Assembly (NCBI GenBank): GCA_018394315.1
Contig: CP074575.1
Location: 310,001 to 374,000, forward strand
Length of the DNA: 64,000 nucleotides
DNA from: Mycoplasmatota bacterium
GTDB lineage: Bacteria; Bacillota_I; Bacilli_A; MAG-NZ
Reading direction: 5' to 3'
Every line of letters begins with the position of its first letter. Within the stretch, counting starts at the first letter, position 1. The notes beneath the pieces are model-generated. The model was given only the letters and a program-made list of their open reading frames with translations, searched no databases and was not told where the DNA came from. The translations under genes were made by a program, and so were the position numbers. Shown piece after piece: positions 5,207 through 43,876 of this stretch.

Positions 5207-5361
5207 TATTTACCTTTTAGGCACTTTTTAAATAACTTAAGTGATAAAGGCACCTTCGGAAATTATATATTCTGAATACATATATATTGAATACTAAACT
5301 TGATGAACACTTAAGTAAAAATAAGATGTATTCCTCATATTCTACGAAAAGGAGGGAGGGT

Positions 5362-5829
5362 ATGGATAAAGAGTTAGATTCTATTATTGAAAAGGAAATA
5401 ATAAATCAGGAATTTGAAGAATGGTTTGGAGAGTTTCCATGTAGGCGTACAATATGGAGTTCTGATGAACCAATTGAAAATGCTACTTTAATATTTAATT
5501 ATCAAAATGGAACTGATGAACTCAGACTCTATATAAACGACAGTTCAAGACCTACAGAAATCCTTAACCCAGGAGAATCATATAAAAAAACAAAAATAAA
5601 CTTATATAGAATAGAAATCTGCTGTGGTAACGAGACCCCTGTAAGTAATAATAGATGTTTAAATATGTGTAAAAGACGAAGAATTAACGAATCACATTGT
5701 TCAGGTACTATAAGGATATGTACTTATCACAAAAAACCTTGTGCAAAACCAAAGTGTAATTATGCATTATGGTTAATTATATTTATATTAAATGTAATTA
5801 TAGCCCATTCTTGCTCTGACTGTTGTTAA
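5362..5829 (+). CDS. Cys-rich protein, possible S-Ena (endospore appendage) type
   Basis: A 155-residue protein from ATG 5362 (GGAGGGAGGG just upstream). Residues ~27-110 read as a small beta-rich domain: Cys-x-x-TIW, a strand with NG-turn, LNPGESYKKT, then IEICC and CLNMC. This order (C..W...N.G...PG.S...I.I.C) resembles the S-Ena type endospore-appendage subunits (DUF3992), but I can only judge by eye. The tail carries a Cys-rich stretch (CTYHKKPCAKPKC), one hydrophobic segment (ALWLIIFILNVIIA) and ends SCSDCC. Disulfide cross-linking outside the cytoplasm is plausible. It sits next to genes of the YheC/YheD/ATP-grasp type, which include spore-coat-associated proteins. Function is unproven. 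Confidence 0.55.
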   Translation: MDKELDSIIEKEIINQEFEEWFGEFPCRRTIWSSDEPIENATLIFNYQNGTDELRLYINDSSRPTEILNPGESYKKTKINLYRIEICCGNETPVSNNRCLNMCKRRRINESHCSGTIRICTYHKKPCAKPKCNYALWLIIFILNVIIAHSCSDCC

Positions 5830-5845
5830 TCTAATTCTAATAATC

Positions 5846-5874
5846 AATAACCCACAATCAATTTGTGGGTTATT
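5846..5874 (+). terminator. Hairpin after the Cys-rich gene
   Basis: 12-bp stem AATAACCCACAA/TTGTGGGTTATT, loop TCAAT, 16 nt after the stop codon. The T tract is weak, so it is a probable rather than certain terminator. Confidence 0.6.
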
Positions 5875-5969
5875 ACTATTTTGAACTTTTTGAAAAATTT
5901 AACATTTATACAACTTATCACCTAGTCAAAAATCAAACTTAATAATACTATAAAGTAGGAGTTGATAAT

Positions 5970-7211
5970 ATGAGGGCTATCATATTCATAAACACAACAG
6001 AGTCGGGTACATCTAGAGAAGTATTAAAATCTGCGAAGAGATTAGGTTATAAAGTAATTCTTTTTACAGACAATTCAAAACAAGATAAAGAAAGACATCG
6101 ATTCACTGAAGTAGATGAACTAATATACTTAGAATATCTATCCTACGGCGATATAAAATCTTACATTGAAAGATATATTTTACACTTTTATGAGATCTCC
6201 GCTATCTTAAGCTTTTTAGATGGTTATGTAGGAATGGCATCTAGACTCGCAGACGATTTTACTGATAATATACTTAGTTCAAAAGCACTTGAAATAATGG
6301 AAAACAAACTTAAAACTAGAATGTTTTTTAAAGATGATAGTTTTACCCCGAAGTTCTCAAGTCTTAAAGATTTGTTAAATAAATCTCATTTGAATTTTCC
6401 TGTTGTCTATAAAGAATGTACTTCAACTGGTTCAAAGGGAGTAAAAAAAATAAATTCAAAATATGAACTTACAAACTTCGTGACGTCAGATGCCTTCATA
6501 GAAGAATATATACCAGGTCAGCAATATATGGTTGAGGTTTTAGTAAAAAATAGTAATCCAAAGATAATTGCCAAAATTAAGCAGATTATTTTGCAAACTA
6601 GTTATGATACATTCATTGTAAAAGGTTACTCTTTAGATAAAGATTTTAAGCTCCACACAAGTGAAAAAGAAATGATCAACAAAATTGTTTCTAAATTAAA
6701 GATTAAGAATGGACACATTCATATTGAATATAAGATGAATAAAGATGGGGTTAAACTCATTGAAATAAATCCTAGGATCTCAGGCGCAGGCATGCATGCG
6801 TTACTTGAAGAAGGACTTGGAATTAACTATACTGACCAAATGTTGAAGTTTTACCTAAAAGAAGATATACAAATTCCCAAACTTAAGAATAATTGTTACG
6901 CTCATTACTTTCTATCTAACAAAGGAGGGATACTTTCTAGAGTCACTGGAAGAGCAAAATCAATCATTCAAAAAGATATAAAGAGATTATTCATTAAACC
7001 TAAACAAGGTCAATTTATTAGATTACCAAAGTCAATGGCCAATCGATATGGTTACATCATTGGAACTGGTAGAACAATAGAGGAAGCAAGAACAAATACT
7101 CTCAAAGCTTCAAAAAATATCAAATTCCATCTAGTTCAAGAGTCATACTTAAACCTAATTCTCTTTATACTTCTCGTATTGGTACTTTCACTGCATTTGC
7201 ATAACTTATAA
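5970..7211 (+). CDS. ATP-grasp ligase with C-terminal hydrophobic segment
   Basis: An ATP-dependent carboxylate-amine/thiol ligase-like protein, 413 residues. The N-terminal ~110 residues form a PreATP-grasp domain; the ATP-grasp follows (FPVVYKECTSTGSKGVKK glycine loop, EEYIPGQQYMVEV, and LIEINPRISGAG, the Mg-binding E-x-N-x-R). A C-terminal domain like that of L-amino-acid/dipeptide ligases follows, and the last ~20 residues are hydrophobic (LNLILFILLVLVLSLHL), suggesting membrane attachment. It is a paralog of the ATP-grasp protein at 8293-9480, with nearly identical layout and motifs such as Q-LKFYLKED and GYIIGTGRT. It stands alone on the plus strand, convergent with that operon. Substrates are unknown. 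Confidence 0.8.
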   Translation: MRAIIFINTTESGTSREVLKSAKRLGYKVILFTDNSKQDKERHRFTEVDELIYLEYLSYGDIKSYIERYILHFYEISAILSFLDGYVGMASRLADDFTDNILSSKALEIMENKLKTRMFFKDDSFTPKFSSLKDLLNKSHLNFPVVYKECTSTGSKGVKKINSKYELTNFVTSDAFIEEYIPGQQYMVEVLVKNSNPKIIAKIKQIILQTSYDTFIVKGYSLDKDFKLHTSEKEMINKIVSKLKIKNGHIHIEYKMNKDGVKLIEINPRISGAGMHALLEEGLGINYTDQMLKFYLKEDIQIPKLKNNCYAHYFLSNKGGILSRVTGRAKSIIQKDIKRLFIKPKQGQFIRLPKSMANRYGYIIGTGRTIEEARTNTLKASKNIKFHLVQESYLNLILFILLVLVLSLHLHNL

Positions 7212-7241
7212 AAATTCATTATCAAAGAAGAGACTACTATT

Positions 7242-7270
7242 TACCATTCGTTTTTGAATGGTATTTTTTT
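7242..7270 (+). terminator. Terminator of the plus-strand ATP-grasp gene
   Basis: TACCATTC/GAATGGTA stem with a 6-nt loop and seven T residues, 30 nt after the stop. Confidence 0.75.
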
Positions 7271-7297
7271 AATTAAAAAAAGAATTTAAAAATTCTT
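7271..7297 (-). terminator. Terminator of the murF-like/ATP-grasp/yheC operon
   Basis: On the minus strand, AAGAATT/AATTCTT with a 4-nt loop followed by T residues; it overlaps the yheC-like stop codon at 7286. Confidence 0.55.
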
Positions 7298-8293
7298 AAT
7301 TTTATATTCACTATATTTAATAATATTTCTGGCGTGATCAAGTTCACCTCTAAAAATTATTGGTACTCCCGGTCTCCAATTTATCTCATAAAGATAAATT
7401 TTATTATTCTTATCGAGTCCAATATCGATTCCTAGTTCATTAAGATCATCTCCATAATAATCATTAATGAATTCAGCCAACTGAATAGCGAACACTTTCA
7501 TGTATTTAAAAATGGCATTCCACTTCTCATCATACTCTCCCTTTAAATATGACTCGATATCAACTGTATATCCTCCTTGACTATAGTTTGTTACTTTGTT
7601 CTTGACGTTAGCTATTCTTGGATAGATAGTTGTAAGTATATATTTACCCTCTCCATTTTTTTGAGTATGAAGTCTAAAATCGACAGGTAGACCTTTTGAA
7701 GTCTCAGAGAAAATATATTGTTGTATTAAGTATGACTCTAAATCTATATTCTTTAAAGGCTCTTCTAAAGAGTTAACTACAAATTTACTACCATTCTCGT
7801 AGATTATATATGTTTTAGATTTTTTTTCAATAAACAAAATCCCGATCCCCTGGCATCCACTCATAGGCTTCAAAACGATTTTTTTATACTTATTCAGGAA
7901 TTCATCTACATTACTAATATTAGAGGCTAATTTAGTTTTCGGTAAGAAACCTCTAAAACAAGTGTCCTCCATTATTATTCTATGAATATCTTCTTTATCC
8001 CCTATTGGATTCTCTAAATACGATATTTCATCTCGTAATCTCAAGTAAATATCATTTTGTTTATCTGTATTTGGTTTAAACATATTAATTACAACCTTTG
8101 GAAACGGATAGGTCTTCTTAATCCACTCTCCATTTTCATAACTAAATCCCTCTATCGTCCTACTTATAAAGTCAACCTTTCCTGGTGAAAAATAGAAAAA
8201 TTCTACTCCCTCCATTTTAGCTGCAGCTGCAAAAGTATAGACCCTACTAATTTTGCTTGGATGAGCCCTCATATGCATAGCCCCTACTAACAT
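7286..8293 (-). CDS. YheC/YheD-family ATP-grasp protein
   Basis: A 335-residue protein of the YheC/YheD family, named from Bacillus spore-coat-associated proteins. The N-terminus (GAMHMRAHPSKISRVYTFAAAA.MEGVEFFYFSPGKV) is the family's characteristic domain. The ATP-grasp core is visible in KKIVLKPMSGCQGIGI, the YLIQQYI strand, PVDFRLHTQ and YEINWRPGVP. Its ATG overlaps the stop of the preceding ATP-grasp gene (TAATG), with GGAGGACG upstream, so it is co-translated as the last gene of a MurF-like/ATP-grasp/YheC operon. The biochemical reaction of the family is not established; peptide or amino-acid ligation is inferred from the fold. Confidence 0.82.
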   Translation of the reverse strand: MLVGAMHMRAHPSKISRVYTFAAAAKMEGVEFFYFSPGKVDFISRTIEGFSYENGEWIKKTYPFPKVVINMFKPNTDKQNDIYLRLRDEISYLENPIGDKEDIHRIIMEDTCFRGFLPKTKLASNISNVDEFLNKYKKIVLKPMSGCQGIGILFIEKKSKTYIIYENGSKFVVNSLEEPLKNIDLESYLIQQYIFSETSKGLPVDFRLHTQKNGEGKYILTTIYPRIANVKNKVTNYSQGGYTVDIESYLKGEYDEKWNAIFKYMKVFAIQLAEFINDYYGDDLNELGIDIGLDKNNKIYLYEINWRPGVPIIFRGELDHARNIIKYSEYKIKNF

Positions 8294-9480
8294 TATTCGT
8301 CCTCCCTTAAATGAAAAGTAATTTTTTTCGCAGCATCCAATGCAGCTTTTTTGGCATCTTCAACTGTCTCTCCAGTTGCGATAATGTAACCATTTCTATC
8401 TCCCATGTGCCTTGGCTTTCTAATATAATTCCCTTTTCTTCTCTTAATAAACACCACTTCAACACCAGGAGAGTTAAGAGCTTTAATCTTTCCAGTTACT
8501 CTGAGACTTTCTCCTTCTTTTTCTGATATTAAAAAGTGAGTGTACACATTTTCTTTTACTTTTGGCAACTCAAAATCTTCTTTTAAATAAAATTTAAGTA
8601 TCTGCTCTGCGTAATCAATTCCACTAGCTACTTTCATAATGTCATTCATTCCTGTACCCGTTGTTCTTGGATTTATTTCAATCAGTTTATAGATATCTCC
8701 ATTCTTTCTCATTTCAATATGTAATTCACCATTTTGAACTTCTAATTTCTTGGTAATATCTATAATGATTTTTTCTTCATTACTAGTTATATAGTCATCC
8801 TTATTTAGTGAGTATCCTAGTATAATGAATGAATTGTTTTTAGTATAAATATTATCCTGATGGAACTTAACGATATAAACAGGATTACCGTTTTCAACAA
8901 ACACCTCAAATAAGTACTGTTCTCCGTCTACATACTCTTCTACTAAAACATCATCAGAATTGTAAAATGATTCAGGGATGTCTTCTACTGTATCGACTTT
9001 TTTTACATCTCTAGAGGCTGATGAAGATGATTTCTTAATTATAAAAGGATAATTCAATAGAAAAGCGTCGCTCTTATTCATTTTTGCTTTTATGTAAATT
9101 GGCGAAAAATCATAGTCCTTAAATACTTCTCTAGTACGTAATTTGCTCTCCATAATCTCTAAAGCATTAGTGTTCCTAGGATTAAAAGTGAATTTATCTC
9201 TTAATCTAGAAGCCAAGGTAACATAACCATCTACAAAACTCAAAATAGATACTATTTCGAAATGTGGCTTTATATTTTGTTTTATATATTTTTTTAATTT
9301 ATCAAGAGATAAATCTTCCAAATAGAGCATTTGATGAACATCATGATACTCATCTAGCTGATTAATTTGTTTTTTGTTATCAGTTATTAAAATAGTATAA
9401 TAATTTAACCTGTCACAAGCCTTAATTACGTCCCTGCTTAATCCAGATTTATTCGTCTTAATGAAAACTACTGCCTTCAT
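8293..9480 (-). CDS. ATP-grasp ligase, middle gene of the MurF-like operon
   Basis: A 395-residue ATP-grasp enzyme, paralog of the plus-strand protein at 5970-7211 but without its C-terminal hydrophobic tail. The glycine loop FIIKKSSSSASRDVKK binds ATP; EEYVDGEQYLFEV and LIEINPRTTGTG supply the metal-binding acidic residues. The C-terminal domain contains GYIIATGETVEDAKKAALDAA, as in carboxylate-amine ligases of the BL00235/DdaF type. It follows the MurF-like gene by 55 nt and overlaps the yheC-like gene by 1 nt. Joining an amino acid to a carboxylate is the family expectation; the actual substrate is unknown. Confidence 0.82.
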   Translation of the reverse strand: MKAVVFIKTNKSGLSRDVIKACDRLNYYTILITDNKKQINQLDEYHDVHQMLYLEDLSLDKLKKYIKQNIKPHFEIVSILSFVDGYVTLASRLRDKFTFNPRNTNALEIMESKLRTREVFKDYDFSPIYIKAKMNKSDAFLLNYPFIIKKSSSSASRDVKKVDTVEDIPESFYNSDDVLVEEYVDGEQYLFEVFVENGNPVYIVKFHQDNIYTKNNSFIILGYSLNKDDYITSNEEKIIIDITKKLEVQNGELHIEMRKNGDIYKLIEINPRTTGTGMNDIMKVASGIDYAEQILKFYLKEDFELPKVKENVYTHFLISEKEGESLRVTGKIKALNSPGVEVVFIKRRKGNYIRKPRHMGDRNGYIIATGETVEDAKKAALDAAKKITFHLREDE

Positions 9481-9535
9481 AATATCACCCTATCATATAC
9501 TATGATTTGTTAACAAACACAATTAGTGTAAATGT

Positions 9536-10894
9536 TTAGATATATATATTTTCATCAACTAGGTAATCAAATATTTCTTCAAAATTGTCCAGCATTGATA
9601 TTTTTACTAAAACCACAGTATCTTCATCAATCAATTCACTTAACAGTTCTTTTACACCTTCGACACTATCTAACATAATCACTCTATCTTCTTCTAGTCC
9701 ATTTTCAATTGCTCCATAACCAATGAGCTTAGATACCTCATCTAGAGTAATTAAATAATCCACATCAGTTAAGTATTGCCCCATTTCTCTATGTAACTCT
9801 TCTTCTAAATCATCTAGATACCCCATCTTAGATAAAATAATAATTTTCTTTTTGGGGAATTCCATCAATACATCAATAGCTGCTTTTAAAGATGTTGGGT
9901 TTGATGAAAATGAATCATCAATAATCAATGAACCATTTATACCACTTTTTAGTTCTAAGTGTTTACTAACATATTTATAGTCCTTTAGGATTGCAATTGA
10001 TTCAGTTATATCTATACCTAATAAACGACAAGCTATAATCGCAGCAGTCGCATTATACATATTGTGTTCTCCTAGACCTGGCAACTTAACAATATACTTT
10101 TTATCATCATGAATAAGGGTATAAGACATTCTTAACACATCAACATCAGTTATTCTGTACTCACTCTCATTTTTACCAAAGTATATTAATTTTCCTTCAA
10201 AGTCGCTTATATCTATCTTTGCAGTATTTTCACAATCTTTATTTAGAATCACAAAACCTGACTCATCAATTATTTCAAGCATTTCTGCTTTAGCCTTAAT
10301 ATAACCATCTAAATCCTTACAACCATTAAAATGATCATAACCTATGTTGGTTATGATTCCAATATTGGGATTAAAGTACATATTTGCCTCAAGTATGTCA
10401 TTTGGCTCAGCAACACCCATCTCATAAACCGCTACATCAATGTAATCATCTAAGGCTACTAAATATGGCAAATTAAAATACCCTGCATTTTTACTCGATA
10501 TTGTTCCTTCGACATTATAAAACTTAGATAATATAAACTTGATCATTTCTTTTGTAGTTGTTTTTCCACATGTTCCTGTAACCCCTACAACTGGAATATC
10601 AAATAATGATCTATAGTATTTAACAAATTTCTCTAATGCTTGGTCAACATCATCGACATAAATAACAGTAAAATCATCAAATTCCGACTCAAGCTTAACA
10701 TCAGAAACAATCACTACGTTGGTCCCATTAAAATCTGATGGATAAATCCTTGAATTAGATACATAAAAATAAGCAGAATTAACATCAAGAAACCTAACTC
10801 TATAACCGACATACTCTATGTCACCTAAAAAGTTATCCTGTGCAATTTCACCCCCAATAATTTCATTAAATTCGTCAAGCGAAAACTTCTTCAT
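9536..10894 (-). CDS. Divergent MurF-like Mur ligase
   Basis: A Mur-ligase-family ATPase of 452 residues, similar in length to MurF. Visible: P-loop VTGTCGKTTTKEM (about residue 105), the GYIKAKAEML lysine used for carbamylation in Mur ligases, the GLGEHNMYNATAAIIA segment, and IIDDSFSSNPTSLKAA, where true MurF normally has D-x-YNANP-x-S. Loss of the YNANP motif and the operon with two ATP-grasp proteins argue for a specialised peptide ligase rather than the housekeeping UDP-MurNAc-tripeptide:D-Ala-D-Ala ligase. It starts at ATG 10894 after AGAGGTGA. The product could be a cell-envelope or spore peptide, but this is inference. Confidence 0.8.
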   Translation of the reverse strand: MKKFSLDEFNEIIGGEIAQDNFLGDIEYVGYRVRFLDVNSAYFYVSNSRIYPSDFNGTNVVIVSDVKLESEFDDFTVIYVDDVDQALEKFVKYYRSLFDIPVVGVTGTCGKTTTKEMIKFILSKFYNVEGTISSKNAGYFNLPYLVALDDYIDVAVYEMGVAEPNDILEANMYFNPNIGIITNIGYDHFNGCKDLDGYIKAKAEMLEIIDESGFVILNKDCENTAKIDISDFEGKLIYFGKNESEYRITDVDVLRMSYTLIHDDKKYIVKLPGLGEHNMYNATAAIIACRLLGIDITESIAILKDYKYVSKHLELKSGINGSLIIDDSFSSNPTSLKAAIDVLMEFPKKKIIILSKMGYLDDLEEELHREMGQYLTDVDYLITLDEVSKLIGYGAIENGLEEDRVIMLDSVEGVKELLSELIDEDTVVLVKISMLDNFEEIFDYLVDENIYI

Positions 10895-11003: not shown

Positions 11004-11034
11004 TAAAAAAAGCCTAGAGAGTAAGCTCTAGACT
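11004..11034 (-). terminator. Terminator of the tRNA-Val/tRNA-Thr unit
   Basis: Minus-strand hairpin GTCTAGAG/CTCTAGGC (one G-T pair) followed by seven T residues, 13 nt beyond the tRNA-Thr CCA end. Confidence 0.75.
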
Positions 11035-11046
11035 TTAGATTATAAA

Positions 11047-34937: not shown

Positions 34938-35588
34938 TTAGACATTCATGGTTTTCAGGTTATCACTAATAATTAGTTTTGCTTCAGTTACTTCTTGTAC
35001 TTGTTCTACTGTAGTATCAGGAGCTATTTCTGTTAACAGGATACCCTCTGGTGTAATCTCCATAACACCTAATTCTGTAACAATCATATTTACCTGATTA
35101 ACAGCAGTAAAAGGTAACGTACATTTCTTTAATATCTTCATCTTTCCTTTAGCTGTATGTGTCATAGCGACAATTACTTTCTTTGCCCCCACAACTAAAT
35201 CCATGGCTCCGCCCATTCCAGGAACCATTTTTCCAGGAATAATCCAGTTCGAAATATTTCCCTTTTCATCAACTTGAAGTGAACCTAGTACAGTGATATC
35301 AACGTGGCCCCCTCTTATGATTCCAAATGAGGTAGCACTATCAAAACACACACCATCCGTACTCATCGTGATGGGCATACCTCCAGCGTTTGTTAAGTCG
35401 AAATCTTCTTCACCCTCTTTAGGAGCAGGCCCTAACCCCAACATTCCATTTTCAGACTGAAAAGTTATATCTTTATCATCAGTAACAAAAGAAGCAACCA
35501 TTGTTGGTAAGCCAATACCTAAGTTGACCACATTACCATCTTTTAATTCTTGTGCCACACGCTTAGCTATAAATTCTTTAATATTCAT
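34938..35588 (-). CDS. atoA: Butyrate/acetoacetate CoA-transferase, subunit B
   Basis: Beta subunit, 216 residues, which carries the glutamate that forms the CoA-thioester intermediate: [12 protein letters not shown] with Glu46. [15 protein letters not shown] is the CoA-site glycine loop. It follows atoD directly with no gap. As the last gene of the lysine-fermentation operon, it most likely transfers CoA from butyryl-CoA to acetoacetate made by Kce, releasing butyrate. A close paralog lies at 55843-56496. Confidence 0.92.
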
Positions 35589-36242
35589 TTACTTATCCCC
35601 CTTCACAATATAGTCCACAAAGATATGTGGAGTAACAATATTGTCTGGATTTAAGTCGCCAATACTAACTACTTCTCTTGCTTCTACTATTACTATTTCA
35701 CATGCAGTAGCCATCATTGGATTAAAATTACGCGTAGTTTTACTATAAATAGTATTGCCTTTTTCATCAACTTTGTGCCCTAGTAGTAGTGCTATGTCAG
35801 CTTTTAGAGGTTTTTCTAAAAGAAATTTTTCTCCTTCAACTTCTATTATTTCTTTACCTTCTTGAACGATAGTTCCTAGTCCAGTAGGTGTAAGGAATCC
35901 ACCTAATCCCGCTCCACCTGAACGAATTTGCTCAACTAAAGTTCCTTGGGGAACTAGTTCTACTTCCATAGTTCCTTCACTCATTCTTTTTCCAGCTTCA
36001 GGATTTAATCCAATGTGAGACGCGATTAGTTTTTTTACCTTACCAGCGCTAATCAATTTCCCAACACCTTTATTTGGTAATCCTGCGTCGTTACATATAA
36101 TTGTTAGATCTTTAATATCACTTTTTACAATCTCTTCTATTAGGTTTTCCGGAGTACCAACAACCATAAAGCCACCAACCATAATACTCATTCCGTTTTT
36201 TAGCTTAGATATAAACTCACTCTTATCTATTATTTTTTTCAT
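35589..36242 (-). CDS. atoD: Butyrate/acetoacetate CoA-transferase, subunit A
   Basis: Alpha subunit, 217 residues. The N-terminal oxyanion/CoA loop [18 protein letters not shown] and the [32 protein letters not shown] and TTRNFNPMMATA motifs are those of the 3-oxoacid CoA-transferase family. AGGAGGA lies 5 nt before the ATG; the gene is 8 nt from kamE. Works with the next gene as an alpha/beta pair. Confidence 0.92.
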   Translation of the reverse strand: MKKIIDKSEFISKLKNGMSIMVGGFMVVGTPENLIEEIVKSDIKDLTIICNDAGLPNKGVGKLISAGKVKKLIASHIGLNPEAGKRMSEGTMEVELVPQGTLVEQIRSGGAGLGGFLTPTGLGTIVQEGKEIIEVEGEKFLLEKPLKADIALLLGHKVDEKGNTIYSKTTRNFNPMMATACEIVIVEAREVVSIGDLNPDNIVTPHIFVDYIVKGDK

Positions 36243-36250
36243 AGTTCCTC

Positions 36251-36997
36251 CTAGACCAATTTTCTATTAATCATCTCTTGAACAATAAATGAAGCTACAT
36301 CATCTGCGTATTTCTTTGATCCAAATCCCGCATCATAACCTAATTCTTTAGCAAGTTCATGTGTAATTCTAGGTCCTCCAGCTACTACTATTACCTTATC
36401 TCTTATTCCTTCAGCTTCCAATAACTCAATAAGGTTGGTTAAGTTATCAACATGAATCCCTTTTTGTGTTACAACTTGAGAAACCAAAATTGCATCAGCT
36501 TTTACTTCGATAGCTTTTTTTATTAACTCTTCATTTGGAACTTGACTTCCCATATTTAATGCATCTATTCCAATATATCTTTCTAATCCGTAATGTCCCG
36601 CAAAACCTTTCATATTCATGATTGCATCTATTCCTACTGTATGAGCATCAGTTCCTGTAGCAGCTCCTATAATGACAACATTACGTTTGATATTTTTTTC
36701 AATGAATTTTTGAACTCCATACATATCCATTTTATCTGTATCTACAGCTTCAATTTTTATATCATCGTAATTTACTGAGTTTTTATAATTACCGTATACT
36801 ACATAATAAGAAAAATTCTTATCAAGTTCTTCTTGATGAGCAATTGAAGGATTCTCTAAATTCATCCCTTTGGCTACTAACAAGGCAGCCTCATAAGCTT
36901 TTTCATCAGCTGGTAAAGGCAATGTAAATGAAACTTGAACTTTACCATCATCTAATGTATCGCCATATGGCTTTACTTTTTTAAGATCAACTTTCAT
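36251..36997 (-). CDS. kamE: Lysine 5,6-aminomutase, beta subunit (B12 and PLP binding)
   Basis: Small subunit, 248 residues from ATG 36997 (GAGGAG 8 nt upstream; a GTG three codons earlier is less likely). With KamD it moves the 6-amino group of beta-lysine to C5. The cobalamin motif D-x-H-x-x-G (DAHTVG, His119) is followed 11 residues later by Lys130; in the Clostridium enzyme the B12 His and the PLP-lysine have the same spacing. The Rossmann-like B12 domain continues through QVPNEELIKKAIEVKADAILVS and VVAGGPRITHELAKELGYDAGFG. Overlap with kamD is nil (1-nt gap). Confidence 0.95.
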   Translation of the reverse strand: MKVDLKKVKPYGDTLDDGKVQVSFTLPLPADEKAYEAALLVAKGMNLENPSIAHQEELDKNFSYYVVYGNYKNSVNYDDIKIEAVDTDKMDMYGVQKFIEKNIKRNVVIIGAATGTDAHTVGIDAIMNMKGFAGHYGLERYIGIDALNMGSQVPNEELIKKAIEVKADAILVSQVVTQKGIHVDNLTNLIELLEAEGIRDKVIVVAGGPRITHELAKELGYDAGFGSKKYADDVASFIVQEMINRKLV

Positions 36998-36998
36998 T

Positions 36999-38558
36999 CT
37001 ATTCACTCCTCAATTCTTTAATCATCTCAGTTAAAACTGGATTGAAATAAGACTCACTTTTTTCAAATACTCCAATTAATCCTTTACCCATATTTTTACC
37101 ACGCTTAATACCTGCAAAAATACCTCTTTCAATTGTATTAAATAAACCAATTTCATCAATCTTAGATAAAAGGTCAATTGATTTATCTAACACTTCATTT
37201 GCTCTTGTTTGGATAATCCCATTCTCTTTAAACACTATTTCATCTGAGATATCTGCCATAGTATTAAATATATAGTTTGCATTCTCAATTGCTAACGCTC
37301 TATCTGATAAGAATGGTGTGTGTATTGCTTCAGTCATCATTCCCAGTAAATGAATCTTTTGATTTGTTAAAATTGTAGTTATATTAAATAAAGCATCTTG
37401 AACATGTCCTTTAAATATATTACCTGTCATGAATTTAGTTGGAGGCATATATTTCAGTGGCGCTTTAGGGAAAATTTCTCTAGCCATTTGTGCTTGTGCA
37501 ACTTCATAAAGAAATCCATTCTTAACATCAGGATTAATCTCAAAAGCATGACCAAGTCCTTGTAATTCTTCAGGTAAATAAGCCAAAAGTGCAAATTGCT
37601 CATTAATAAATTGACTAGCAAGAACCGTATGTGCTTCTTCTACGGCATCAGCTGTTGTTAAATAATTATCTTCACCAGTATTAATTATAATACCTGCATA
37701 TGAATCGATAACTCTAGAAAAATATTGATCGACAAATGTTCTCTTCATATTTATGTCTCTAAATAAAACTCCATACAAAGAATCATTAAGCATAACATCT
37801 AATCGCTCTAAAGCACCCATTGCAGCTATTTCAGGCATACATAACCCAGAAGCATAGTTAACTAATTTTATATATCTACCTACCTCTTCACCTACTTCAT
37901 CTAATGCTTTACGCATAATCTTGAAGTTTTCTTGTGTTGCGTAAGTTCCTCCAAATCCTTCTGTGGTAGCTCCGTATGGAACATAATCTAATAAACTTTG
38001 TCCTGTAGTTCTTATAACTGCAATAATATCTGCACCCTGTCTAGCTGCTGCTTGGGCTTGTAGAACATCTTCATATATATTACCTGTCGCAACAATAACG
38101 TATAACTCTGGTCCAGATTTCTTTCCGTATTTTTTATAGTAACCATCTCTTAGGTCTTTATTATTCTTAATCTTATCTAAATACATCTTAACAACAGTAT
38201 TCATTTTCTCTTTTATTAGACTAATATCACTAAACTTTAATTTGGTAATATCTAATGATTGATTGGATACATTTTTAGCTATTTCATTTGGAGTTAATCC
38301 AGTTTCAATCATCGCGTTTCCTAAGTAATAAGATACACCTAGTGAAATATCACCATTTTCAACAATATAGTCAACAAGAACATTTGGTAGCGGCACACCG
38401 AAATCATCAACGCCATCGATACCTACTAATCTGCAAATAGTCCTTTCTACTGTAAGAGTAGAATGGACATCAATATATACCTGTGTTTCCAACGCTATGT
38501 TTTTAGCTAAAGTTCTAGCTTTAGAAATTAATTTTTTATCTATATTTAGCTTACTCAC
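36999..38558 (-). CDS. kamD: Lysine 5,6-aminomutase, alpha subunit
   Basis: Large TIM-barrel subunit, 519 residues from GTG 38558 (AGGGGTG upstream); the Clostridium subunit has about the same length. Family segments: AVIRTTGQSLLDYVPYGATTEGFGGTYATQENF, which lines the substrate/AdoB12 pocket, and PLKYMPPTKFMTGNIF. It overlaps the end of kamB by 8 nt, so the aminomutase and its reactivase subunit are coupled. Confidence 0.94.
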   Translation of the reverse strand: MSKLNIDKKLISKARTLAKNIALETQVYIDVHSTLTVERTICRLVGIDGVDDFGVPLPNVLVDYIVENGDISLGVSYYLGNAMIETGLTPNEIAKNVSNQSLDITKLKFSDISLIKEKMNTVVKMYLDKIKNNKDLRDGYYKKYGKKSGPELYVIVATGNIYEDVLQAQAAARQGADIIAVIRTTGQSLLDYVPYGATTEGFGGTYATQENFKIMRKALDEVGEEVGRYIKLVNYASGLCMPEIAAMGALERLDVMLNDSLYGVLFRDINMKRTFVDQYFSRVIDSYAGIIINTGEDNYLTTADAVEEAHTVLASQFINEQFALLAYLPEELQGLGHAFEINPDVKNGFLYEVAQAQMAREIFPKAPLKYMPPTKFMTGNIFKGHVQDALFNITTILTNQKIHLLGMMTEAIHTPFLSDRALAIENANYIFNTMADISDEIVFKENGIIQTRANEVLDKSIDLLSKIDEIGLFNTIERGIFAGIKRGKNMGKGLIGVFEKSESYFNPVLTEMIKELRSE

Positions 38559-39561
38559 AATTTTCACCCCTAACTTTTAATACATTATATATAGGTAAAT
38601 CTATTTTCTTTTCTAACATTTCCCTAAATAAATAATCATCATATTCATATCCAAGTGGTGAATATGGATTATATGTTAAACAAACTAAGTTTATATTATT
38701 TATCACCAAAATGTTCACACCTATTTTCTGTAAATTTATATATGAATCGTGATCCAAAAATGCTTTTGTACCATCCTTAATAATAATAGTAAGCTCATCT
38801 AACTTTTGTCGTTTTCTAATCAACTGATTAACCAATTCAATAGTTAAGGCTCCATTAATAATTAAGTATTTACTTGTTTTATCAAGTCTTGATACAATTT
38901 CTTCTTTTGAACCTAAAACTGATTCTAAATCAAATGTAAACACTTCGTCAAATTTATCTATTATTGAAACAGCATGATTGCTTATTAAATCCTTGACTCT
39001 CTTAGAGTTGATTGTTGGTAAAGTCAATAACTTATAGATCGTATATGTATCATCAACAGTCTTTTTAATATCCTTATCATATGAAGCACCAGTTACCAAA
39101 ATAGTAGCTTCCATCAAGTGATTACTTGCTATTTGCTTTCTAGAAAAAGCTCCATCAACTATAAAAATATCTACTTCATCTTCAATCAATGACAAAACAT
39201 CTTTAACCTGTTGGTTAAAAGATGGTCCTGCTAAATCAGTGAACCCATCACTTATTACTTCTGCAATATGAACTAATCCCATTGGTGTATTCATATTAGT
39301 CTTATAAAGTACTTTTAATGAAGATGTTGAATTCTTTATTGCTTCTGAAGTAGTAGCAACAATCGTACCCTTTTTTAAATAAACTCTTGGTTTACTTACG
39401 AAATAAACACTATCTTCCTTTTCTCCATCTCTACCAATTGAAGTTAAGCCAATTTTCTTATCAGATAATTCCTTTAATATATGATTTAACACAGTAGTCT
39501 TACCAACATTTTTTTGCATGCCGATAATAGATAAAGTCTTTACATTTAACAAATGTCTCAT
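38551..39561 (-). CDS. kamB: Lysine 5,6-aminomutase reactivase subunit KamB (P-loop)
   Basis: A 336-residue protein with a P-loop at IIGMQKNVGKTTVLNHIL (residues ~12-28) and a second conserved segment DIFIVDGAFSRKQIASNH. It matches the KamB family found next to kamD/kamE and is thought to help replace damaged cobalamin in the aminomutase. Start ATG overlaps the kamA stop (ATGA) and its end overlaps kamD. The usual partner KamC, a MutS-like ATPase, is not in this operon. Function is known from context in other genomes. Confidence 0.82.
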   Translation of the reverse strand: MRHLLNVKTLSIIGMQKNVGKTTVLNHILKELSDKKIGLTSIGRDGEKEDSVYFVSKPRVYLKKGTIVATTSEAIKNSTSSLKVLYKTNMNTPMGLVHIAEVISDGFTDLAGPSFNQQVKDVLSLIEDEVDIFIVDGAFSRKQIASNHLMEATILVTGASYDKDIKKTVDDTYTIYKLLTLPTINSKRVKDLISNHAVSIIDKFDEVFTFDLESVLGSKEEIVSRLDKTSKYLIINGALTIELVNQLIRKRQKLDELTIIIKDGTKAFLDHDSYINLQKIGVNILVINNINLVCLTYNPYSPLGYEYDDYLFREMLEKKIDLPIYNVLKVRGENCE

Positions 39562-40826
39562 TGCTTACCGTTTCTCAATTTTCTAGCAAGAATTTTTGGT
39601 TCTAAGGCTATATTTTCACCTCTTAATAAACCAGCTACTCCTGTGGTTTGATTATCTTCTTGGCAATACTCACAATCACAATGATCATCGTAATTATTAG
39701 GTACATGATACGTAGTTATCACGCCTTCAAAGTTCCTTAAAACTACTCTTCTTGGTGATTGAGATATCATATATTGAGGCATAACAGGAATTTTCCCTCC
39801 TCCACCTGGTGCATCAACAACAAATGTTGGTACTGCAAATCCAGATGTATGTCCTCTAAGTGCCTCTATTATTTCTATTCCTTTTGTAATAGGAGTTCTA
39901 AAGTGTTCAATACCTTCAGACAAATCACATTGATATATGTAATATGGTCTAATTCGTAACGCTACTAAATCGTGAACTAGCTTTTTCATAATATTAACAC
40001 AATCGTTAATACCACGAAGTAAAACTGACTGATTTCCTAACGGAATTCCAGCATCAGCTAATAAATCAATAGCTCTTTTAGATTCTAACGTAAATTCTTT
40101 TGAATGATTAAAGTGAGTATTGAACCAAATAGGCTGATACTTTTTCATAATGTTAACTAGCTCTGGTGTAATTCTTTGCGGCATTACCACTGGAACTCTA
40201 GAACCAATTCTGATTATTTCTACATGTTCGATATTTCTTAATTCACTTAATATATAGTCTAATCTTTCATCACTTACTAATAATGCGTCTCCACCTGATA
40301 ATAATACATCTCTAATTTGTGTATTTTTCTTGATATAGTCAATAGCCATTTTAACTTTATCAATTGCATACGATGCATCTGTTTGACCAGCTAATCTTCT
40401 TCTTGTACAGTGTCTACAATACATACTACACATATCAGTAATTAGTAATAAAACTCTGTCTGGATATCTATGCGTTAAACCAGGAACAGGAGAATCCCCA
40501 TCTTCGTGTAGTGGATCAGTTAAGTCGTGTTTCCCAATATGAGTTTCATAAGCGCTCGGTACCGCTTGCATCCTTATTGGACACTTAGGATTATTAGGGT
40601 CCATCAAAGCAAAATAATATGGAGTTATACTCATCCTAAATCTATCCAAAACTTTTTCAATTGACTCTTTTTCTGATTTCTCAAGTTTAATATATTTTTC
40701 AATTTTTTCAATTGAATCTATTCTATTTTGTACTTGCCATTTCCAGTCATTCCATTCCTTAGCACTCACATTTGGAAAGTACTTCGCTTTTCTTTTTAAA
40801 TAATCATTATTTAACTTAACACTCAT
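39558..40826 (-). CDS. kamA: L-lysine 2,3-aminomutase
   Basis: Radical-SAM/PLP enzyme converting L-lysine to L-beta-lysine, 422 residues. The cluster cysteines are C-x3-C-x2-C in DMCSMYCRHCTRRR (Cys133, 137, 140); the PLP lysine lies in DAPGGGGKIPVMPQY. The C-terminal CDCEYC segment fits the zinc-site cysteines of the dimer. ATG 40826 overlaps the phzF stop (ATGA) and is 9 nt from GGAG; a closer ATG at 40832 is poorly spaced. First dedicated step of lysine fermentation. Confidence 0.95.
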   Translation of the reverse strand: MSVKLNNDYLKRKAKYFPNVSAKEWNDWKWQVQNRIDSIEKIEKYIKLEKSEKESIEKVLDRFRMSITPYYFALMDPNNPKCPIRMQAVPSAYETHIGKHDLTDPLHEDGDSPVPGLTHRYPDRVLLLITDMCSMYCRHCTRRRLAGQTDASYAIDKVKMAIDYIKKNTQIRDVLLSGGDALLVSDERLDYILSELRNIEHVEIIRIGSRVPVVMPQRITPELVNIMKKYQPIWFNTHFNHSKEFTLESKRAIDLLADAGIPLGNQSVLLRGINDCVNIMKKLVHDLVALRIRPYYIYQCDLSEGIEHFRTPITKGIEIIEALRGHTSGFAVPTFVVDAPGGGGKIPVMPQYMISQSPRRVVLRNFEGVITTYHVPNNYDDHCDCEYCQEDNQTTGVAGLLRGENIALEPKILARKLRNGKQ

Positions 40827-41647
40827 AAACATTCACTCCAATCAACTTCAATTAATCTTTCTTCTATTAATTGCGTTTTTCCACTCAAAAACACTTCATC
40901 CTCAACTCTTACATAAATCAACGACTCGGCATTCATATTAACACCCTGTAAAAAAACTAACTCTTTATCAACCATTTTAAGTTCAGATAAGTAAAAACCT
41001 AACGCACTATTAGCGCTCCCAGTAGCACTTTCTTCATCAATACCATATAGCGGCGCGAAATTTCTAACGACTGCAGTATAATCACTATCCAGGGAAAACA
41101 AGTGATACCCAACCACATCAAATTCTTTACTAATTTCTTCAACCATTTTAAAATCAGGATTTATATTTAGCAAAAGATCTTTGTTCGCAATAGGTATAAG
41201 TATATCTTGTACTCCACTACTTACTACTTTAATAGGAATTCTATTATCTAAATCTTTATTTGTGATGCATAAACTTTGAAGTATCAGCTCTTCATTTAGA
41301 TCTTTTTCAACTATACTAGGTTTTCCGACAGAAAAATAAATGTCTCCATCATTAATAGCTCTTATTTCAATAGAATTTGTACTAATCTTTGCGTCAGTAA
41401 AATCTAATTGACTTAAACCAGCAACAGTAGCATGACCACAAAAATCTATTTCTGACAGTGGAGTAAAATACTGAAAATTATATTCTGAATCACTAATCTT
41501 AGTTATAAAAACAGTTTCTGATAAACCAAGTTTAGAAGCTATTTCTTGCTTAACCTTATTTGATAAATCAGAGTCAATAACAACACCTGCTAGATTTCCG
41601 CCCAATCCATTTTTTGTAAAAGCTGAAACTATCTTTACTTTAACCAT
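40823..41647 (-). CDS. PhzF-family isomerase inside the lysine operon
   Basis: A 274-residue protein with the diaminopimelate-epimerase-like fold of PhzF. Conserved family elements: KLGLSETVFI with the catalytic Glu44, DFCGHATVAGL, and ATGSANSALGFYL. ATG 41647 overlaps kdd by 8 nt; its stop overlaps kamA by ATGA. Tight coupling on both sides argues for a role in the pathway, perhaps isomerising an amino intermediate or clearing a by-product. PhzF is not part of the textbook lysine-to-butyrate pathway, so the role is unknown. Confidence 0.85.
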   Translation of the reverse strand: MVKVKIVSAFTKNGLGGNLAGVVIDSDLSNKVKQEIASKLGLSETVFITKISDSEYNFQYFTPLSEIDFCGHATVAGLSQLDFTDAKISTNSIEIRAINDGDIYFSVGKPSIVEKDLNEELILQSLCITNKDLDNRIPIKVVSSGVQDILIPIANKDLLLNINPDFKMVEEISKEFDVVGYHLFSLDSDYTAVVRNFAPLYGIDEESATGSANSALGFYLSELKMVDKELVFLQGVNMNAESLIYVRVEDEVFLSGKTQLIEERLIEVDWSECL

Positions 41648-42671
41648 AGATTTCTTCAAATAATTTTCTAATCTTATCTGATTCTTTAAGAAGGTTTAAT
41701 GTTAGCTCTGCATGACCTTTTGTATATCCATTTCCAACGATCATAGTCACATCACTACCAACACCTTCTGCACCTAGTGCAGCTTTTGTGAATGAAGTAG
41801 CCATACTAAAGAAATAAACCACACCACTATCTTTAGTAATTAATATTGCACTCATTTCACAATTTGGAACATTTACAACATTTATAGTTACATCTACCTG
41901 TTCATCATTTAATGCCATAACTTTTTCATAAACATCAACAGCTTTAGTAGCATCCGCGACAATAATATCATCTGTTACACCTAATTCTTTTAACCCCTTT
42001 ACCTGTTCTTCGAACGGTACTATTCCGATAACCTTACCATTATTCCCAACTTTCTTTTTTGCTTGATAGCAACATAAGACACCACTCTTACCAGCAGCAC
42101 CAATAACAGCTACCGTATCACCTTTAGAAACTAATTTGTCAGTTTGAGCAGGTGCTCCAGCTACATCTAAAGCGGCTAAAACTAATTTCTCAGGCATATC
42201 ACTAGGAACTTTTGCATAAATCCCAGACTCAAAAAGAATTGCTTCACCATCAATATCTACTTGATCGTTTTCTAGTTTGATATCTCTAATTTTCTTTATT
42301 TTTAGTGGAGTTAAACTTAAACTAACTAAAGTAGCAATAGTATCTCCAACAGATAAACTCTTATCAGGAAAATCTGTTCCGATTTCCTTTACCCTGCCAA
42401 TTAACATTCCTCCAGAACCAGTAACTGGATTCTGCATTTTACCTCTTTTACTAACTATATCTGAAATCATCTCTTCCATTAATGATTTATCAGAATTACA
42501 AACATCTTTTATTTGTGTAAAACTTGCTGAATCAATATTTAAAGTAATTACCTCAATTAATAATTCGTTTGAATTAATTTTCATTTCATTATTAATTTTT
42601 AATGCTGCTTGTGGTAATACACCACTTGGTTCTACTACTCTATGAGTACCAAATCTACATCCTTTATTCAT
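41640..42671 (-). CDS. kdd: L-erythro-3,5-diaminohexanoate dehydrogenase
   Basis: NAD(P)+-dependent deaminating dehydrogenase converting 3,5-diaminohexanoate to 5-amino-3-oxohexanoate, 343 residues. N-terminus GCRFGTHRVVEPSGVLPQAA is the Kdd hallmark. The nucleotide fold shows VIGAAGKSGVLCCYQAKKK. Two adjacent ATGs (42674, 42671) are possible; the second has better spacing to GAGGTG. It overlaps the kce end by 8 nt. Confidence 0.93.
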   Translation of the reverse strand: MNKGCRFGTHRVVEPSGVLPQAALKINNEMKINSNELLIEVITLNIDSASFTQIKDVCNSDKSLMEEMISDIVSKRGKMQNPVTGSGGMLIGRVKEIGTDFPDKSLSVGDTIATLVSLSLTPLKIKKIRDIKLENDQVDIDGEAILFESGIYAKVPSDMPEKLVLAALDVAGAPAQTDKLVSKGDTVAVIGAAGKSGVLCCYQAKKKVGNNGKVIGIVPFEEQVKGLKELGVTDDIIVADATKAVDVYEKVMALNDEQVDVTINVVNVPNCEMSAILITKDSGVVYFFSMATSFTKAALGAEGVGSDVTMIVGNGYTKGHAELTLNLLKESDKIRKLFEEIYG

Positions 42672-43494
42672 CATACACCTCTATTCCTAAAATTTTTCTA
42701 GCCTCGTTAGGGGTAGCTATTTCTCTACCAAATTCAAGTGCTAATCTAACTACTTTAGCAACTAACTCGCCATTATCTTTAGCTAAAACTCCTTTTCTAA
42801 TGTAAATATTATCTTCTAATCCAACTCTTACGTGACCACCCTCTAAAATAGAGGCAACTGCAAGAGGAAATTCATATCTACCAACACCAGCAACAGAGTA
42901 AGTCGTACCATGTGGTAGTGATTCCTTCAAAAACAGGAAATCTCTAAGCTCACCACTTTGTCCACCATTAACTCCTAAAACAAAACTTACATGCATTGGT
43001 GATTTGATATATCTTTTTTTATGTAATCTTAAAACCATATCAAGATGTCCCTTTTCAAAACATTCTAATTCTGGTTTTATTCCTTTACCATATATTCTTT
43101 CAGCAAACTTTTTAATATCGTTCTCAGTATTAACAAAAATTTCATCTCCACCAAAGTTAAGAGTTCCACAATCTAAAGTACACATTTCTATATCAATTTC
43201 AGTTGGTGCTAATCTCTCATCAATACTCATCCCAACAGCCCCACCCGTAGATGGCTGAATAATTACATCAGGACACTCTTTCTTTATCGCTTTAATCGCT
43301 TGATTAAATCTATCCTTACTTTGAGTAGGTGTCCCATCATCTTCTCTAACATGTAAATGTATAATAGCAGCACCTGCATCATAAGCACTTTTAGCTTCTC
43401 TTACTATTTCCTCAATCGTATAAGGGATAGCTTCAGTATGATCCTTAGTAACTTCTGCTCCGCAAATAGCCGCGGTTATAATCAATTTTTCCAT
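42664..43494 (-). CDS. kce: 3-keto-5-aminohexanoate cleavage enzyme
   Basis: Zn-dependent BKACE-family enzyme, 276 residues, that cleaves 5-amino-3-oxohexanoate with acetyl-CoA into 3-aminobutyryl-CoA and acetoacetate. Zn ligands His46 and His48 in IIHLHVRE, the active Glu14 in CGAEVTKDH and the GLEDNIY segment near the C-terminus match the characterised enzyme. ATG 43494 follows GAGGAA; one base separates it from kal. Confidence 0.94.
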   Translation of the reverse strand: MEKLIITAAICGAEVTKDHTEAIPYTIEEIVREAKSAYDAGAAIIHLHVREDDGTPTQSKDRFNQAIKAIKKECPDVIIQPSTGGAVGMSIDERLAPTEIDIEMCTLDCGTLNFGGDEIFVNTENDIKKFAERIYGKGIKPELECFEKGHLDMVLRLHKKRYIKSPMHVSFVLGVNGGQSGELRDFLFLKESLPHGTTYSVAGVGRYEFPLAVASILEGGHVRVGLEDNIYIRKGVLAKDNGELVAKVVRLALEFGREIATPNEARKILGIEVYDE

Positions 43495-43495
43495 A

Positions 43496-43876
43496 TTATT
43501 TCCTCTGTTTATCTTTTGGGACTACGCAAGTTCCACTAGCCCTCGCTACTAAGATAGGTTCATCCAATAAATCACACGCAGAATCACTAATATCTGGTCT
43601 TGGAACGATAACTTTATACGCTTCAAAGACCATTTTTCTTGAAGTGTTACCAGTATTGACTATCTCTCCTTTAGCCTCAATAAAATCACCTGCATAAACT
43701 GGAGCCAAGAACTCAATCATATCGTAAGCTTTAAATAAACCTTCATCCCCATCATTTTTTATTAAGAGTTCGGTCGCAACATCTCCAAATAAAGCTAACA
43801 TTCTTGCTCCATCCACTAATCCACCACCATAATGTGCATCATGAGCACTCATTCTAATTCTAATAACAGATTTCAT
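43496..43876 (-). CDS. kal: 3-aminobutyryl-CoA ammonia-lyase
   Basis: A 126-residue hotdog-fold lyase that removes ammonia to give crotonyl-CoA. [18 protein letters not shown] near the N-terminus and [25 protein letters not shown] are typical. First gene of the lysine operon, 20 nt after the riboswitch terminator U-tract, with GGAGGAAAT before the ATG. The next step, reduction to butyryl-CoA, needs enzymes outside this window. Confidence 0.93.

Follow-up and report, generated by a model that had tools for sequence, protein, structure and literature searches.

What might a MurF-like ligase and several ATP-grasp enzymes, encoded side by side in a Mycoplasmatota bacterium, be making together? 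The question arises from a stretch of 64,000 nucleotides (nt) of this genome (assembly GCA_018394315.1, contig CP074575.1, positions 310,001 to 374,000), hereafter the window. Positions 7286-10894 of the window, on the minus strand, form a three-gene operon that runs from the MurF-like gene through a gene for an L-amino-acid-ligase-type (LAL-type) ATP-grasp enzyme to one for a YheC/YheD-type protein (YheCD), and a second LAL-type gene faces it:

9536..10894, minus strand: MurF-like ligase (Mur_ligase_M and Mur_ligase_C), first gene of the operon, 452 amino acids (aa); PF08245 E 2.4e-31, PF02875 E 5.8e-13
8293..9480, minus strand: LAL-type ATP-grasp (ATP-grasp_4 and LAL_C2), 395 aa; PF18603 E 8e-18
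7286..8293, minus strand: YheC/YheD-type ATP-grasp, 335 aa; PF14398 E 4e-56
5970..7211, plus strand: second LAL-type ATP-grasp with a C-terminal membrane-type tail, 413 aa, convergent; 44% identity to 8293-9480

An earlier note on this DNA had described this operon, and all its genes were found in place: 55 nt separate the MurF-like gene from the LAL-type gene, which overlaps the YheCD gene by 1 nt at position 8293. The facing ATP-grasp copy indeed has the membrane tail ascribed to it, a C-terminal hydrophobic stretch with a mean Kyte-Doolittle value of 2.36 over 19 residues. The note had further suggested that the enzymes build a peptide and had inferred a connection to spores. Our computational analysis supports this through conserved co-location, association with spoIVA, gene fusions, sigmaK-like promoters and the presence of coat and racemase genes nearby. 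On balance, we consider it fairly probable that the locus encodes a sporulation-linked non-ribosomal peptide-assembly module that acts on the coat or exosporium, probably in the mother cell late in sporulation.

Conservation of the gene set

When the window's MurF-like protein alone was used as a direct query of genome contigs, only seven matches of 24-32% identity were obtained, none of them with partner genes, and profile searches took the place of this query. A profile made from five relatives and run over 395 genomes of the window's class separated a clade scoring about 490-750 bits (split over two pieces in genome G176) from the remaining MurFs, which scored about 205-250 bits. A maximum-likelihood phylogeny built from the M and C domains set this clade apart from the housekeeping MurF with a support of 99/96.

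The clade was searched for in genomes of the window's class and of Bacilli. The neighbourhoods of 33 MurF-clade loci from these two taxonomic classes were counted with one script, as were those of 21 control Mur loci (housekeeping MurF, MurC/D/E, FolC and the Bacilli paralogs at L194, L195, L196 and L199). YheCD was encoded near 28 of the 33 clade loci and the LAL-type ATP-grasp near 23, whereas neither was found near any of the 21 controls. Thus, the co-occurrence that the earlier note had proposed to look for is conserved, and the co-location across two classes exceeds chance. Moreover, gene order varies among the loci, as would be expected if selection maintains the set and less so if the synteny was simply inherited. 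An LPG_synthase_C-type acyltransferase and an Asp/Glu racemase are recurrent neighbours.

Some related arrangements were seen during the survey. Genome G024 has two modules, the first of which (L045:5286-6341 and 6411-7319) looks decayed, with YheCD split into two open reading frames (ORFs) and a short ATP-grasp. A third, more diverged Mur-like paralog without the D[ST]R motif (L092:4189-5610, L102:6964-8367) occurs in a family that carries several modules. The Bacilli paralogs L194, L195, L196 and L199 form a second MurF-paralog group, which scored 320-354 bits with the clade profile and lacks YheCD partners, and three of them sit in sugar-nucleotide-type gene clusters.

Association with sporulation

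All 31 sampled genomes with a MurF-clade gene carry spoIVA. Within the window's class this concerned 14 of 14 clade genomes compared with 112 of 395 overall (hypergeometric P 1e-8), and within Bacilli 17 of 17 compared with 178 of 251 (P 0.002); both P values ignore shared ancestry. The Bacilli genomes with the LAL-type ATP-grasp clade were likewise all spoIVA-positive (22/22). The window's own genome encodes a SigG-like factor, which scored 391 bits against a cut-off of 457. These results support the spore link for which a check of sporulation genes had been suggested.

The promoter regions point to the late mother-cell programme in one of the two classes. In the window's class, 12 of the 37 transcription units of the modules were preceded by a strict sigmaK-like site, compared with 2 of the 128 remaining genes at these loci (P 2e-7), and CATAnnnTA ranked first among the permuted motifs tested. 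The sigmaE-type promoter motif was not significantly enriched (P 0.08-0.10).

Genes for spore-surface proteins were also found nearby. CotZ neighbours were detected at L149 and L092 above the cut-off and at L154 just below it, and CotF neighbours at L096 and L098. A gene for a collagen-like protein is the neighbour on the Priestia megaterium plasmid pBM300, and a related YheCD/ATP-grasp pair lies on P. megaterium pBM600. The latter plasmid is reported to be needed for the exosporium, and the YheCD/ATP-grasp genes are not named in that report (PMC4674009).

The ATP-grasp partners and possible tagging of coat proteins

By sequence, the nearest solved structure to the LAL-type enzyme at 8293-9480 is the L-amino acid ligase BL00235 (3vot, E 3e-23), and the enzyme has ATP-grasp and LAL_C2 domains with the ExNPR motif. 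The YheC/D protein matched PF14398 with 190.4 bits (cut-off 26.8) and retains the ATP-grasp stretches KPxxGxxG and EINWRPG. In Bacillus subtilis, YheD is reported to self-interact and to encase the spore, with its function described as unknown (PMC7911427), and yheC and yheD are members of the sigmaE regulon (PMC517825).

The window's genome holds further genes of these families: another pair of LAL-type ATP-grasp and YheCD without a MurF-like gene (L169:7049-9219, about C1:178-180 kb), a protein of 909 aa that contains two YheCD domains and has a Cys-rich ORF of 88 aa nearby (L170:6086-8815), and a YheC/YheD-like gene beside a 252-aa ORF (L171:6833-8900).

The weak profile matches of YheCD to the RimK and tubulin-tyrosine-ligase families raise the alternative that the enzymes modify coat proteins post-translationally with amino acids or short peptides, in the manner of those ligases and with no free polymer. 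Cys-rich, CotZ-type and CotF-type proteins encoded alongside the modules could serve this explanation. However, no protein substrate is conserved at all loci, and the racemase and LAL enzymes suggest that free amino acids are used. We therefore regard such tagging as unlikely, while ranking it first among the alternatives to a peptide-assembly module.

Fusions of YheCD with Mur ligases

A fusion of YheCD to the M and C domains of a Mur ligase, with the N-domain missing between them, occurs in seven Bacilli genomes. The reverse fusion, in which a Mur ligase without N-domain precedes YheCD, was found at L193:7732-10140 and L197:7109-9667, each adjoining an Asp/Glu racemase gene. The fused Mur domain of the seven genomes, whose best match is MurF, lies on a different branch of the tree from the window's clade, and the YheCD-Mur pairing has therefore probably arisen more than once. 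At L184:4601-7318, a 905-aa protein in which a COOH-NH2 ligase (PF14395) and YheCD are fused is encoded directly upstream of a MurF-clade gene.

A structural model of the YheCD-Mur fusion, of low confidence (mean predicted local distance difference test score, pLDDT, 67) and built on a thin alignment, was aligned by Foldseek along 7lgn (E 3e-17), which lends weak support to a likeness to cyanophycin synthetase. The relatives' fusions matched YheCD and MurF models, with no CphA match at E 1e-20, and for the window the CphA model TIGR02068 gave 62.6 bits, its cut-off being 850. No model for the poly-gamma-glutamate synthetase CapB/PgsB was among the best 25 NCBIfam matches.

A MurF paralog without the nucleotide-sugar motif

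Is the window's gene simply the murF of this organism? Mur ligase domains occur at seven places in the genome, a single contig of 2.17 Mb; besides the window gene, these places encode two MurE, MurD, MurC, FolC and a 499-aa protein with MurF as its best family. The last has a long hydrophobic N-terminal region and is followed by Ddl. The possibility that the window gene is the only murF, which would have made it the ordinary wall enzyme according to the earlier note, is ruled out by this transmembrane-type MurF. With a housekeeping MurF encoded separately, the window gene is a paralog. The housekeeping form of this lineage (L050:6690-8189, own genome C1:967166-968140; also L047, L054, L055, L057) carries a hydrophobic N-terminus in place of the usual N-domain, often adjoins Ddl and represents a membrane-anchored MurF.

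The AlphaFold2 model of the paralog has the full three-domain MurF fold (pLDDT 91, TM-score 0.86 to MurF 4qf5). K111, E158, H188, K202 and N281, which correspond to the Mur P-loop, the catalytic Glu and His, the Lys for carbamylation and the Asn, are invariant among 30 clade members. The N-domain D[ST]R motif of MurE and MurF contacts the UDP part of the substrate. Nine full-length Mur proteins from outside the clade were compared, and 7 of them carried it; it was seen in seven canonical MurFs and in no clade row. Thus, the clade keeps the MurF scaffold and has lost the nucleotide-sugar motif. The YNANP motif, which the earlier note had reported as lacking, has diverged rather than vanished: in the alignment this stretch reads DDSFSSNPTS in the window protein and DDTWSSNPTS in the clade consensus, and the N-P is retained.

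The complete fold and the core catalytic residues would also fit a sporulation-specific MurF that makes UDP-N-acetylmuramic acid (UDP-MurNAc) pentapeptide for cortex peptidoglycan, with the ATP-grasp genes as incidental neighbours, and late-sporulation expression of mur genes has been discussed (PMC10745906). The absence of D[ST]R from every clade member speaks against this, as do the lack of Ddl alongside, in contrast to the housekeeping MurF, the conservation of the partners in shuffled orders and the fusion of N-domain-less Mur ligases to YheCD in relatives. The MurF-like protein also fell short of the TIGR01143 cut-off (223.9 bits against 288.6), which is not decisive because the housekeeping MurF of the same genome scores under it too (241.6 bits). 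Taken together, a cortex-specific MurF seems improbable, more so than the tagging of coat proteins. Less probable still is a bacilysin-like dipeptide or antibiotic pathway expressed during sporulation by chance, since the resemblance of the LAL-type ATP-grasps to L-amino acid ligases, with their C-terminal LAL_C2, is offset by the lack of any recurring exporter or tailoring gene among the neighbourhoods read and by the recurrence of coat-type genes.

A proposed peptide-assembly module

Mur ligases and ATP-grasp enzymes both activate a carboxylate as an acyl phosphate, which is then joined to an amine. In a sporulation-linked peptide-assembly module, the MurF-like protein and YheC/D would form an ATP-dependent amide-bond-forming pair comparable to the two halves of cyanophycin synthetase, one Mur-type and one ATP-grasp, and we infer that in the window organism they could act one after the other on the same growing peptide. 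The probable role of the LAL-type ATP-grasps would be to provide a dipeptide or to attach another residue. At related loci, the Asp/Glu racemase and the LPG-synthase-type acyltransferase could supply D-acidic residues or transfer residues. The putative product, either an oligopeptide or a poly-amino acid, would decorate the coat, exosporium or appendages or form cross-links in them. A narrower version, which we put forward only tentatively and hold to be less likely true than false, is that a split cyanophycin-synthetase-like pair, consisting of YheC/D and a MurF paralog no longer using UDP-MurNAc, makes a hitherto undescribed poly-amino acid or repeating peptide of the spore surface, which may contain D-Asp or D-Glu and would be part of the coat or exosporium.

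Several observations weigh against the proposed module. The upstream regions of the window's own genes contain no strict sigmaK-like site, and at the Bacilli loci the strict sigmaK motif was not enriched (2/38 compared with 4/171); the effect in that set is weak or absent. Five clade loci (L100, L152, L182, L186 and L188) have no YheCD nearby, and the related genomes sampled are not phylogenetically independent. An Arg that is near-invariant in other MurFs is replaced in the clade, by His in 80% of the rows and otherwise by Gln or Lys, and catalysis may consequently be altered. The P. megaterium plasmids pBM300 and pBM600 have no MurF partner. Staphylococcus is a genus not known to sporulate, and genes of the YheC/YheD family are found on the Staphylococcus epidermidis plasmids NZ_CP121481.1, NZ_CP121479.1 and NZ_CP121517.1. 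This implies that the YheC/D family is not confined to spore-formers; confinement to spore-formers holds for the sampled MurF clade and not for the YheCD family alone.

Part of the idea is not new. Iyer, Abhiman and Aravind reportedly predicted in 2009 that neighbourhoods of ATP-grasp, COOH-NH2 ligase and acyltransferase genes make peptides, including ones for cell surfaces, and peptide ligation by YheC/D is said to have been predicted already. In the open-access literature searched we found no paper joining an ATP-grasp, a Mur ligase and the spore coat, none that connects a clade of MurF paralogs with YheC/D and sporulation, and only genome papers on PF14398/YheCD. The MurF-paralog clade, the YheCD-Mur fusions and the promoter link appear to be new. 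The finding that YheC/D is paired with Mur ligases, and in relatives fused to them, together with the LAL ligases and racemases, leads to the testable claim that YheC and YheD form peptide bonds at the spore surface. If this is true, spore coats would hold a non-ribosomal peptide component that is missing from textbook descriptions, and a wall-precursor enzyme would have been recruited away from UDP-MurNAc. The split cyanophycin-synthetase-like version, if true, would in addition assign a reaction to YheC/YheD.

Surroundings of the operon

The remaining features of the locus are as follows:

5287..5829, plus strand: Cys-rich endospore-appendage-like ORF, 12 Cys, alternative ATG start at 5362; PF13157 Enas, borderline
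7242..7263, no strand assigned: terminator-like stem between the convergent units
11009..11036, no strand assigned: terminator-like stem separating the operon from the upstream tRNA-Thr and tRNA-Val

The terminator-like stems bound the operon, and the two tRNA genes lie immediately upstream of it. The adjoining ORF is Cys-rich, as had been noticed before, while its suggested identity as a spore-appendage protein is borderline (21.3 bits with Pfam Enas, cut-off 22, E 2.9e-4). Elsewhere in the window, at 34938-43876, a lysine-fermentation-type gene cluster was recognised by eye from the ORF translations.

Comparison with known systems

MurF, the UDP-MurNAc-tripeptide:D-Ala-D-Ala ligase, shares with the window protein the three-domain fold, the P-loop, the catalytic Glu and His, the carbamylated-type Lys and the Asn. 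It differs in having the D[ST]R motif, the near-invariant Arg and Ddl as a neighbour, whereas the window protein belongs to a separate clade with ATP-grasp partners. The L-amino acid ligases BL00235 and BacD have the domain make-up of the window's LAL-type enzyme, which also matches BL00235 in sequence (3vot); the window enzyme, however, stands in a conserved spore-linked context with a MurF-like protein and YheCD. B. subtilis YheC and YheD are of the same PF14398 family as the window protein and are likewise spore-associated, but the window YheCD sits with a Mur ligase and in relatives is fused to Mur ligases. Archaeal pseudomurein clusters also combine Mur ligases with an ATP-grasp in conserved clusters (PMC11915815), and a weak NF053643 match was seen, yet they serve a vegetative archaeal wall and employ other Mur and ATP-grasp families. 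Cyanophycin synthetase CphA1 unites an ATP-grasp and a Mur ligase in one chain and in the same order as the fusions of the seven relatives; in these fusions the ATP-grasp is of the YheCD family and the Mur part has its best match in MurF, and in the window the two are encoded by separate genes.

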